Below are positions 7,335-9,565 of a stretch of DNA of 27,998 bases, one piece after another. Positions within the stretch are counted from its first letter, which is position 1. Each line of letters opens with the position of its first letter. A program made the translations under genes and the position numbers. The stretch is taken from IMG/VR virus record IMGVR_UViG_3300010354_000479, positions 1-27,998 of that record. One strand, given 5' to 3'. This stretch comes from a virus. Under the pieces are notes generated by a model, which saw only the letters and a list, made by a program, of their open reading frames with translations, had not been told where the DNA came from and searched no databases.

Positions 7335-7530
7335 AGTCGTTGAAACAGAAGAGGGTTTTGAGATCTCCTGGGACCCAGAAGACCCGATAGAGCGAGCTTT
7401 TAACGATTGGACAGAAGAAGATTTCCGTACAGTTATTGTAAAAGCAGCAGAAAAAGTGATTGCTGAACACGAAATTGCGCAAAACGGTTCAGGTGACAAC
7501 ACTTTTGAACAGGAGTTCCTGGCAAAATAG
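7324..7530 (+). CDS. acidic hypothetical protein, 68 aa
   Basis: The ATG at 7324 follows a run of A and overlaps the previous gene by 11 bases; a longer in-frame ORF from 7186 would lie inside that gene and is rejected. The product (VVETEEGFEISWDPEDPIERAFNDWTEEDF) is acidic with a Trp-Asp/Glu-rich N-terminus and a C-terminal helix. It is the last gene of the overlapping array. Unknown function. Confidence 0.6.
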   Translation: MTIEVVETEEGFEISWDPEDPIERAFNDWTEEDFRTVIVKAAEKVIAEHEIAQNGSGDNTFEQEFLAK

Positions 7531-7540
7531 GGTACGTTCA

Positions 7541-7562
7541 TTCGCTATTCGCAAATAGCGAA
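7541..7562. repeat. perfect inverted repeat, 9-bp arms
   Basis: TTCGCTATT (7541-7549) and AATAGCGAA (7554-7562) are perfect complements with a CGCA loop. No T run follows. A second small palindrome, GAACG-GAT-CGTTC, lies at 7581-7593. The pair occupies the 160-nt gap before the next gene and may be an operator or an RNA end-protecting hairpin. Confidence 0.55.
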
Positions 7563-7690
7563 CGGAAGTAAGCCGACGCGGAACGGATCGTTCATATTCA
7601 GATTCTTGATAAAAACCATTTATTGGGAATTCGAATACGCAAACGCCGACTGAAGGAACGCTCTTTAACCCTCGTTAAGGAGTTTCAATC

Positions 7691-7843
7691 ATGTCGATTG
7701 CAACATATCGCGGTGTTAAGTACAACACCGACACACCCAAGCAAGAGTACAAGGAGTGGTGGAATAAAATCCACCATGACGCTTCCAAGCACTTGGTTTA
7801 CCGGGGCACCGACTACAGGCCAGTCCAGACTGGTCAGCAGTAG
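7691..7843 (+). CDS. DUF4278-like YRG protein, 50 aa
   Basis: The ATG at 7691 follows an AAGGAG ribosome site (7678-7683) that itself follows a small TTAAC/GTTAA hairpin. The 50-aa product carries two YRG motifs: ATYRGVKYNTD at the start and LVYRGTDYRP near the end. That duplicated YRG..Y layout is typical of the cyanobacterial DUF4278 family (established family, unknown function), which also occurs in picocyanobacterial phages. It supports a cyanobacterial host. A GTAGCA/TGCTAC hairpin overlaps the stop. Confidence 0.7.
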   Translation: MSIATYRGVKYNTDTPKQEYKEWWNKIHHDASKHLVYRGTDYRPVQTGQQ

Positions 7844-7879
7844 TAGCATCTGCTACAATATTACTTCGCCTCAAGCGCC

Positions 7880-8020
7880 ATGACCGCACTCGTCCTCATT
7901 CAAAAACAACTCAAAAAACAGCAGAAGATCGGAGAATTTCCGTACTTACGCTGGAAATTAGCACAGGAGAAGGCCGATGCCACTGCTAAAACGATGGGAG
8001 AGGCCCTCAGAAGGTCCTAG
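7880..8020 (+). CDS. basic mini protein, 46 aa
   Basis: From the ATG at 7880, 46 codons encode a Lys/Gln-rich, probably helical peptide (ALVLIQKQLKKQQKIGEFPY, then LRWKLAQEKADATAKTMGEA). No Shine-Dalgarno site is seen. A terminator lies 74 nt after the stop. Size and composition make this tentative; a nucleic-acid-binding role would fit the charge but is not shown. Confidence 0.45.
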   Translation: MTALVLIQKQLKKQQKIGEFPYLRWKLAQEKADATAKTMGEALRRS

Positions 8021-8093
8021 ACGCAACGACAAAAGCCGACAGGCATCAGCGCGTCTAAGGCAAATTAAGAAGGCCACAAAGGCCCAGATGAAG

Positions 8094-8120
8094 CGGCTCC
8101 GGGAACGGGGTCGTTTTTTT
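8094..8120 (+). terminator. rho-independent terminator
   Basis: CGGCTCC (8094-8100) pairs with GGGGTCG (8107-8113), including two G-U pairs, around a 6-nt loop and is followed by seven T. It ends the rightward transcript before the leftward RNA locus. Confidence 0.7.
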
Positions 8121-8124
8121 GTAG

Positions 8125-8199
8125 CACCCAGGCAGGATTCGAACCTGCATCGTCCCGCAGCGGCGGTAACCGTCTTGTCCAATTAGCTCGGACTGGGTG
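8125..8199 (-). tRNA. tRNA-like element 1 with collapsed anticodon arm
   Basis: On the minus strand a perfect 7-bp acceptor stem (CACCCAG/CTGGGTG) and a perfect T arm (GCAGG-TTCGAAT-CCTGC) enclose 44 nt, so overall size is that of a tRNA. The D loop has TTGGA, but the D stem is poor and no 5-bp stem with a 7-nt anticodon loop can be drawn. The best pairing in the arm is CCGC-CGCT-GCGG, a 4-nt loop. The arm recalls an arginine (CCG) tRNA that has lost three loop bases (inference). No CCA is encoded. It could be a decaying tRNA, a tRNA mimic or a processing signal. Confidence 0.55.
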
Positions 8200-8201
8200 A
8201 G

Positions 8202-8271
8202 GGCATCTCCGGGAATCGAACCCGGCATTCTGGGCTATCTGCCCAACGTGTACCCATAACACTTAGATGCA
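8202..8271 (-). tRNA. tRNA-like element 2, Ile(GAT)-like but lacking U33
   Basis: The minus strand folds as a 70-nt cloverleaf: acceptor TGCATCT/AGATGCC (six pairs and a mismatch at 1-72), D stem GTGT/ACAC with loop TATGGGT, anticodon stem TTGGG/CCCAG, T arm CCGGG-TTCGATT-CCCGG. The 7-nt anticodon loop is CAGATAG, putting GAT at 34-36, but position 33 is A, whereas U33 is nearly invariant. C32 and G38 could also pair, shrinking the loop to 5 nt. It is two bases upstream of element 1 and directly downstream of the structured RNA. No CCA is encoded. Decoding ability is doubtful. Confidence 0.65.
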
Positions 8272-8500
8272 GGGACCCCTCTGTTTGTGCGTCATCCGGC
8301 GTCCCGGAGCTAAGCATGAGGGGTGTTGACGCAAACCAGGAAAGGTAACCCACAACCAGCGGTGGACCTCAGAACTGGCTGCACCCTACCGACAGAGCGG
8401 TGGGGGTGGTTGGATAGATGGCTTAAGCGTGACCGGCCTACCGACAGTCGGGCTGTGAGTTAACCAGGCGTATCCGAACAGAGGCTTAAGCTCTATCCCC
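8272..8500 (-). ncRNA. structured RNA region with pseudoknot, upstream of tRNA-like pair
   Basis: This 230-nt region holds no convincing gene but is full of perfect complementarity. At 8275-8336 are three stems: ACCCCTC/GAGGGGT (8275-8281 with 8318-8324), GTTTG..CGTCA/TGACGCAAAC (8283-8294 with 8327-8336, 2-nt bulge) and TCCGG/CCGGA (8295-8299 with 8304-8308); the first two interleave as a pseudoknot. At 8412-8498, GGATAG pairs with CTATCC and two GCTTAAGC blocks pair with each other, closing a long arm that contains CCGAC-A-GTCGG. A sigma70-like promoter at 8504-8531 would start leftward RNA at about 8497, so the 5' end would sit in that long stem. Strand choice is inferred from this promoter and from the tRNA-like elements downstream. 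Confidence 0.5.
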
Positions 8501-9016
8501 CACATTATACCGACTCCGCACCTCCTCCCAATCAATTGGAGTGTAATCTGTGTGTTCAACACAGACGCACTGATAGCGCTCGTCAGGAGTGCCATCGTCC
8601 AGAAGTACCCTTCTATAATGTAAATGCCCATGAATGTTGCCCTTGTAACGCATTAAATTGACAGGATGGACCGGTATATGAGTCAAGATGATCCCATCCA
8701 GATAATGGCATCCACGGATATCTCTGAAGTGTTGAGTATAATCACTCAATTTAAATATGTCATGATTGCCTCTAATTAAGACTTTTTTGCCATTCAGGCG
8801 TTCAAGACAGCGTAATCCTTGACGTGCAATTGCAACATCCCCTAGGTGATAAACCTTATCATCTGGCTTTACTACCGAATTCCACCGGTCAATTAGCTCT
8901 TCTTCCATTTCCCGAACATCGTCCCATGGCCTAAGGGGCGTGCCATCATCACGCAGAAACTTGCAAACGCCAGCATGGCCAAAGTGAGTGTCGGCAGTGA
9001 GAAAGGTTCTTGTCAT
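8486..9016 (-). CDS. calcineurin-like metallophosphoesterase, 176 aa
   Basis: A compact two-metal phosphoesterase. The motif order is complete: TADTHFGH (D9, H11), GDVA, RGNHD, THIPVH and GHLH. These residues coordinate two divalent metals (Fe, Mn or similar) and hydrolyse phosphomono- or diesters. The length of 176 aa is that of the small single-domain phage and bacterial enzymes; the substrate cannot be read from sequence. An ATG at 9014-9016 is preferred to a GTG two codons upstream; neither has a Shine-Dalgarno site. It is divergent from the virion operon at 9062, and its 3' end contains the promoter of the downstream RNA locus, so readthrough would also transcribe that locus. Confidence 0.85.
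   Translation of the reverse strand: MTRTFLTADTHFGHAGVCKFLRDDGTPLRPWDDVREMEEELIDRWNSVVKPDDKVYHLGDVAIARQGLRCLERLNGKKVLIRGNHDIFKLSDYTQHFRDIRGCHYLDGIILTHIPVHPVNLMRYKGNIHGHLHYRRVLLDDGTPDERYQCVCVEHTDYTPIDWEEVRSRYNVGDRA
8504..8531 (-). promoter_or_regulatory. sigma70-like promoter for the RNA locus
   Basis: On the minus strand TTGGGA (8526-8531), a 16-nt spacer and TATAAT (8504-8509). It lies within the last codons of the metallophosphoesterase gene and points at the structured RNA and tRNA-like elements. Confidence 0.55.
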
Positions 9017-9031
9017 AGCCACATTTTACCG

Positions 9032-9042
9032 TAGGCAATCTA
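9032..9042 (+). promoter_or_regulatory. candidate phage promoter motif, copy c
   Basis: TAGGCAATCTA, 19 nt before the ATG of the first virion gene in the window and in the short divergent gap after the metallophosphoesterase start. Confidence 0.4.
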
Positions 9043-9061
9043 ACCTAGGGGTTTCATTGGC

Positions 9062-9565
9062 ATGGCAAGTCCGTTACTAGAATTTGCTAACGCCAGGATT
9101 ATGACTCGTTCGGGCGGCGTAGTCGGGCAAGACGCTGATGGCCGCATTTACACCTCAGACGAAACGAGGACACTTGTTATCTGCTACATGAAGCGGATTC
9201 AGTATACGGGTGTTACATCTGGATCAAGAAAAGTTCCTCTGGCCTCTGAGTTGAACGGAGAAATGCTTCCAGGCGCCAGTGGCGATGAGTTCTACTACAG
9301 GGGCTACGCGCTACAGGCGGCTACGGTGGATTCTTCATACGATTGGACAAAGGCAGACGTATCGGACGCAACTTTTACGGATATCACCAGTGATCAACCT
9401 TACCTGAGATCCCAAAAAGAGATTCAGTTCCTTTTCGGTGATCAACTTATGAAGGGTACGATTCAAAGAGGCATCGGCAAATTCGGTGGTTCTGGCATTG
9501 ATGAGATCATTTATCCAGCCATCGGTGTCGAATTACAGATCACGGGTGGCGAGGTTCTTAATTAA
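9062..9565 (+). CDS. putative head-closure or neck protein, 167 aa
   Basis: First gene of the virion cluster seen here. The sequence is beta-rich and starts MASPLLEFANARIMTRSGGV; a YRGYAL segment and a C-terminal GVELQI strand fit a small head-tail connector barrel. I assign it by position (immediately before an HK97 gp10-like gene) rather than by clear motifs. Stop and next ATG overlap by one base (TAATG). Alternative: another small neck or stopper protein. There is a weak AGGGG upstream and the motif TAGGCAATCTA at 9032. Confidence 0.5.
   Translation: MASPLLEFANARIMTRSGGVVGQDADGRIYTSDETRTLVICYMKRIQYTGVTSGSRKVPLASELNGEMLPGASGDEFYYRGYALQAATVDSSYDWTKADVSDATFTDITSDQPYLRSQKEIQFLFGDQLMKGTIQRGIGKFGGSGIDEIIYPAIGVELQITGGEVLN

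Follow-up and report, generated by a model that had tools for sequence, protein, structure and literature searches.

AbiF is a recently characterized HEPN RNase toxin of abortive infection that is related to Cas13 or the ancestor of Cas13. The abiF RNA (Rfam RF03085) is the antitoxin of this toxin (Abi_2, PF07751), and a structure of an Abi family protein has been solved (PDB 8vz6). The abiF-motif RNA, represented in Clostridioides difficile by RCd22, in which P1-breaking and compensatory changes have been made, neutralizes the HEPN-type toxin AbiF in trans, by direct binding (PMC12373285). A cyanophage abiF sRNA has already been reported once, as an annotation in S-CREM1, and the available part of that report does not link it to AbiF neutralization (PMC9964418). 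Pseudo-ToxI of phage PhiTE is an RNA mimic of ToxI that defeats ToxIN (PMC3475682).

The stretch of DNA analyzed here (27,998 nucleotides of the IMG/VR record IMGVR_UViG_3300010354_000479; hereafter, the window) is a fragment of a cyanosiphophage genome; it contains psbA and a glutamine riboswitch, and its tail genes most closely resemble those of S-CBS2 and S-CRES phages. The riboswitch (RF01739; 7533-7664, plus strand) contains a 77-nt insertion and is followed by a 50-aa ORF (7691-7843). The original prediction identified, in noncoding sequence, three stems that are indeed present: a 7-bp stem (8275-8281/8318-8324), a 10-bp stem (8283-8294/8327-8336, with a bulge at 8288-8289) that crosses the first one, and a 5-bp hairpin (8295-8299/8304-8308). 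This much complementarity is not a chance occurrence, as originally argued: the architecture (a 7-bp stem, crossed by a 9-bp stem whose bulge does not exceed 2 nt, and an enclosed 5-bp hairpin, in 66 nt) is found once in the window and in none of 300 full-length shuffles of it that preserve the dinucleotides. The stretch that holds the folded element is noncoding as far as visible.

The active strand of the element is the minus strand, read leftward. A TATAAT box (8509-8504) located at the end of a phosphoesterase gene precedes a structured leader of ∼230 nt, which is followed by a tRNA-like gene and then by a second, degenerate tRNA-like element (Table 1). Related cyanophage contigs, collected via the phosphoesterase and a neck protein, contain a promoter-like -10 box, RNA modules and a tRNA-like element in the same order and on the same strand, which bears out the view of a structured phage RNA that is read leftward, ahead of a tRNA-like element. 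The tRNA-like gene does adjoin the element, at a distance of 3 nt, not the 4 nt first noted. The plus-strand reading is rejected because the minus strand is the one indicated by the promoter, the relatives and the covariance model hits alike. Blast searches of the region against annotated phages yield, at most, short matches confined to a tRNA T-arm region.

Table 1. Features of the leader and the adjoining tRNA-like elements (coordinates in the window)
Feature	Coordinates	Strand	Evidence or remarks
Promoter-like site (TTGGGA, 16 nt, TATAAT) that would serve the leader and the tRNA-like genes	8504..8531	-	TATAAT likewise placed in two related loci (L002, L003)
Module A (GAG-NNN-AAGCCUCUG..hairpin..CACGCUU-NNN-CCAUC), structured RNA without Rfam match	8412..8498	-	Flank pairing
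Module B (variable 6-bp stem around UGCUCUGUCG, then RGCAR), without Rfam match	8379..8405	-	Stem pairing
Module C (CCAGUUCUGAGGUCC...CCUGG), conserved RNA without Rfam match	8336..8378	-	25-nt core in 19 viral loci
5' strand of the crossing helix (GUUUGCGUCA), pairing with 8283-8294	8327..8336	-	Outside the antitoxin fold
abiF-type antitoxin RNA, enlarged (long) form	8275..8324	-	Rfam RF03085, models R1 and R2
P1 (the earlier 7-bp stem), ACCCCUC/GAGGGGU	8324-8318/8281-8275	-	Closing stem
P2, UGC/GCA	8316-8314/8290-8288	-	3 bp, one base inside P1
P3 hairpin (the earlier 5-bp hairpin), enlarged insert	8308-8304/8299-8295	-	Apical part
Conserved single strand CAAACA (CAAAC, 8287-8283)	8287-8282	-	Follows P2
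tRNA-like element (ARAGORN: tRNA-Ile, GAT)	8201..8271	-	Rfam 28.3 bits, just below cut-off
Second, degenerate tRNA-like element; normal T-arm, odd anticodon arm	8123..8199	-	Rfam tRNA 21.0 bits

The element had been thought to match no known RNA class but, judged by covariance models, it is an enlarged (long) form of an RNA of the abiF antitoxin family (RF03085). In several relatives, its place is occupied by a compact 37-nt hairpin with AAGCCTCTYAACRATGCTCAAAC, a pattern that is found in 113 viral stretches and corresponds to the abiF RNA of Rfam. Other relatives have a longer form, in which the closing stem, P2 and the ...GCUCAAACA strand are the same as in the short form and a large hairpin replaces the short loop; one locus (L212) is intermediate between the two. 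The long form, to which the window element belongs, substitutes for the short one ahead of a tRNA-like element of the same type. The Rfam alignment of the window element spans the whole abiF model with a score of 24.0 bits (E 0.0098, 84 nt searched), without reaching the gathering score of 37 bits. A model built solely from 11 bacterial RNAs, all from AbiF loci (R2), matches the 28-kb window at the element alone (26.8 bits, E 2.5e-5), and a mixed model built without the window sequence (R1) yields 39.5 bits (E 3.7e-9), these two E-values being rough because the models were quickly calibrated. The cyanobacterial AbiF-linked RNAs that were tested (L353-L356) are also unreported by RF03085, so that the Rfam cut-off misses likely genuine antitoxins; for this reason, the window element is classified as an extended variant rather than as a curated member of RF03085. 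Because both the enlarged form and these cyanobacterial RNAs fall below the cut-off, the abiF family is wider than the current Rfam model, which could be widened to the AbiF-linked cyanobacterial RNAs. ToxI-type (type III toxin-antitoxin) families are absent from the window at gathering scores, and from positions 7500-9100 at E-values up to 10. The HDV-like, hammerhead, twister and pistol readings, as well as tmRNA, RNase P, group I intron and GOLLD/ROOL-like RNAs, were rejected, as the window contains no Rfam match that would support any of them.

The hallmarks of the abiF family, namely, a closing stem P1 of 6-7 bp, a 3-bp P2 and then a CAAAY-N strand, are all present in the window element. 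Among the relatives, the sequence of P1 varies and the pairing is kept, 66 distinct stems being 92% paired compared with 63% for shuffled ones. In an alignment of 21 sequences, 98.1% of the P1 and P2 cells are paired, against 77.8% in shuffles, none of 500 shuffles being as high, and in nine of the 10 pairs, both sides have changed. Compensatory variants of P2 across the relatives include AGC/GCU, AGG/CCU, UGC/GCA and GGC/GCC. The phage long forms have AGC/GCU, UGC/GCA (the window and four others) or GGC/GCC, all paired, the few further combinations in the long-form table being due to misparsing or to a fortuitous match in coding sequence; the UGC/GCA of the window differs from AGC/GCU by a double change that preserves pairing. 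The predicted minimum-energy fold of the element lacks P2, although the family fold lies only 0.7 kcal/mol above that minimum. An antitoxin copy that was acquired by recombination with a host plasmid and now drifts without function could be expected to diverge from the Rfam consensus and to carry an enlarged loop, as the window element does; however, many phages show compensatory changes in P1 and P2, the enlarged form occurs in ∼20 distinct phage units, and the CAAAC strand is retained exactly, all of which speaks for selection, so that the element is most improbable as a relic.

The 10-bp crossing helix, which would make the element an H-type pseudoknot, fares differently. It occupies the conserved CAAAC (8287-8283) together with the P2 base G8290, and the two other P2 bases are bulged out. 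Of the distinct phage long forms that were parsed correctly (∼20), about half allow the GUUUG:CAAAC pairing, and all of those that do share one upstream leader, GUUUGCGU; in two loci with this leader (L208 and L220), the helix is broken without compensation, and it is missing in the other long forms, including the four others with the P2 variant of the window. The AbiF-linked RNAs examined are not preceded by any GUUUG leader. Because the helix is broken or absent in about half of the long forms and overlaps P2, it is not a conserved fold, and the pseudoknot is rejected as the working fold; the crossing helix is probably an incidental or alternative pairing outside the antitoxin fold and, as an alternative, might form. 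Thus, of the two large stems, the 7-bp one shows compensatory changes and the 10-bp one does not.

Comparison of the phage and bacterial loci indicates that the window element is an orphan. No Abi_2 toxin gene is detectable in the 49 viral records examined (the window and 48 related ones, several of 60-185 kb), whereas 12 of the 15 bacterial genomes that carry the RNA have one, and an AbiF ORF is found around the RNA in none of the 124 viral loci against 53 of the 100 bacterial loci. The annotated regions of cyanophage S-SZBM1 and mycobacteriophage Thibault contain tRNAs and no nearby Abi gene. Given this absence of Abi_2, the window element is considered an orphan copy, which is a property of the locus, not of the RNA fold. 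Because the window and many of the phage records are fragments, individual phages among these might have a toxin gene elsewhere in the genome. The element could then be the antitoxin of an AbiF encoded in the same phage, within a complete toxin-antitoxin or superinfection-exclusion system; such complete AbiF systems are known in some temperate phages, for example, Clostridioides phage phiC2 (PMC12373285), and the window is but a 28-kb fragment. Nevertheless, the lack of the toxin in all these records, the long ones included, and around every viral copy of the RNA, as well as in the tRNA-containing regions of S-SZBM1 and Thibault, makes a phage-borne system very unlikely. Orphan abiF RNAs are also found in mycobacteriophages (Thibault, L365, and others), in tRNA-containing regions whose DNA is mostly noncoding.

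The context of the phage copies differs from that of the bacterial ones in another respect. A tRNA detected by ARAGORN follows within 60 nt in 38 of the 108 distinct phage copies and in none of the 115 bacterial copies, whereas a T-run follows the RNA in seven and 90 of these copies, respectively. The coupling to tRNAs, the 3-nt distance in the window and the possibility that the crossing helix occludes the CAAAC strand are compatible with a cis-acting leader or pseudoknot switch that would guide how the downstream tRNA-like RNAs are processed, stabilized or terminated, without any role against AbiF. This interpretation appears unlikely, given that conservation falls on the residues of the AbiF-linked antitoxin and not on those of a tRNA leader, many phage copies do not adjoin a tRNA, the same RNA lies upstream of bacterial toxin genes, and the crossing helix is not conserved.

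Cyanobacteria encode both the toxin and a similar RNA. Abi_2 proteins are encoded by plasmids of Picosynechococcus (for example, pAQ3 of PCC 7002), Synechocystis and Cyanobacterium, and an abiF-like RNA is located directly upstream of most of these genes, including those of Picosynechococcus and Synechocystis; cyanobacterial AbiF was seen on plasmids only, and the carriers of these plasmids may not be hosts of this phage. The cyanobacterial AbiF-linked antitoxin-like RNAs (L353-L358) have an AGG/CCU P2 and a small extra hairpin. An Acinetobacter plasmid RNA that adjoins an Abi gene has the core AUGCYUAG..hairpin..CACGCACAAAY in common with the window.

Without a toxin gene and with a position that is frequently ahead of tRNA-like elements, the element is probably a decoy that disarms a host defense, so that the decoy RNA suggested in the original prediction is the best functional reading. 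Specifically, the element is likely to be an orphan abiF antitoxin RNA, a phage mimic that neutralizes the AbiF of the host. We infer transcription, processing, binding to AbiF and a benefit to the phage along the following lines: the promoter at 8509-8504 would drive the element together with the tRNA-like genes, the RNA would adopt the P1-P2-P3 fold and leave the conserved CAAAC strand exposed, its 3' side would presumably be trimmed by 5'-end processing of the tRNA, and the released RNA would bind host AbiF in the course of infection, keeping the toxin silenced even once the host's own antitoxin is lost.

The tRNA-like element next to the abiF RNA has a normal T-arm, a short D-loop and an A at position 33, and is likely to enable the leader to be processed at its 3' end. 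The anticodons of the tRNA-like elements in the relatives are CAT, GAT or GAC. These elements may themselves be decoys for tRNA-cleaving defenses. Upstream of the abiF RNA, modules A, B and C form a mosaic array in the leader (window 8498-8336, minus strand) that is shuffled between cyanophages, with variable stems and conserved loops, and arrays of at least three structured modules are also found in other loci (L109, L149, L200, L215 and L366-L378). Modules A and B have compensatory pairing of their own: the 3-nt flanks of module A are paired in all nine distinct NNN/NNN combinations among the relatives, and 13 distinct relatives pair at 6/6 positions of module B with several different stems, the window copy pairing at 5/6; module B is possibly a small pseudoknot. 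Two of these loci (L149 and L200) have a further conserved element, GACGGTNYAAGCYTGGCA...ACCGTT, upstream of module B. The search of plasmids with modules B and C gave no match, so that no host counterpart has been found for them.

Taken together, the modules and the tRNA-like elements suggest an RNA counter-defense island. Tentatively, and with appreciably less confidence than in the case of the abiF mimic itself, the leader (8498-8275) might be considered one cassette of such a phage island, shuffled between cyanophages and consisting of RNA antitoxin or substrate mimics along with degenerate tRNA-like decoys. Under this scenario, the abiF RNA, modules A, B and C, and others in the relatives would be unrelated antitoxin or substrate mimics, each mimic or decoy would disarm a different host RNase or tRNA-cleaving defense, and tRNA processing would free all the mimics from one transcript.

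The presence in many phages of an orphan abiF RNA that is coupled to tRNA genes, and not to the toxin, suggests that an RNA-based means of escaping AbiF is widespread, and the neighboring modules, conserved in the same manner, are candidate antitoxins or decoys for other defenses. The literature searched contains no orphan abiF RNA as a counter-defense, no enlarged form and no tRNA coupling, which is weak evidence of absence. The comparison with the known systems is as follows. Like the abiF RNA proper (RF03085 and RCd22), the window element combines a P1 of free sequence, one unpaired base, a 3-bp P2 and the conserved CAAAY strand, and its flanks (AACA before P1 and U after its 3' strand) are those of the short phage forms; unlike RF03085, it has UGC/GCA in place of AGC/GCU in P2, an enlarged apical hairpin of 23 nt compared with 11, and no downstream toxin gene, a tRNA-like gene replacing the terminator. 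The S-CREM1 RNA is likewise an abiF RNA in a cyanophage, but of the short canonical form, with a score of 51.6 bits that exceeds the gathering score. Pseudo-ToxI would be the functional analog, in which a phage-encoded RNA imitates an RNA antitoxin and thereby defeats an RNase toxin of the host, although the ToxI repeat RNA and the ToxN toxin belong to families unrelated to those considered here.
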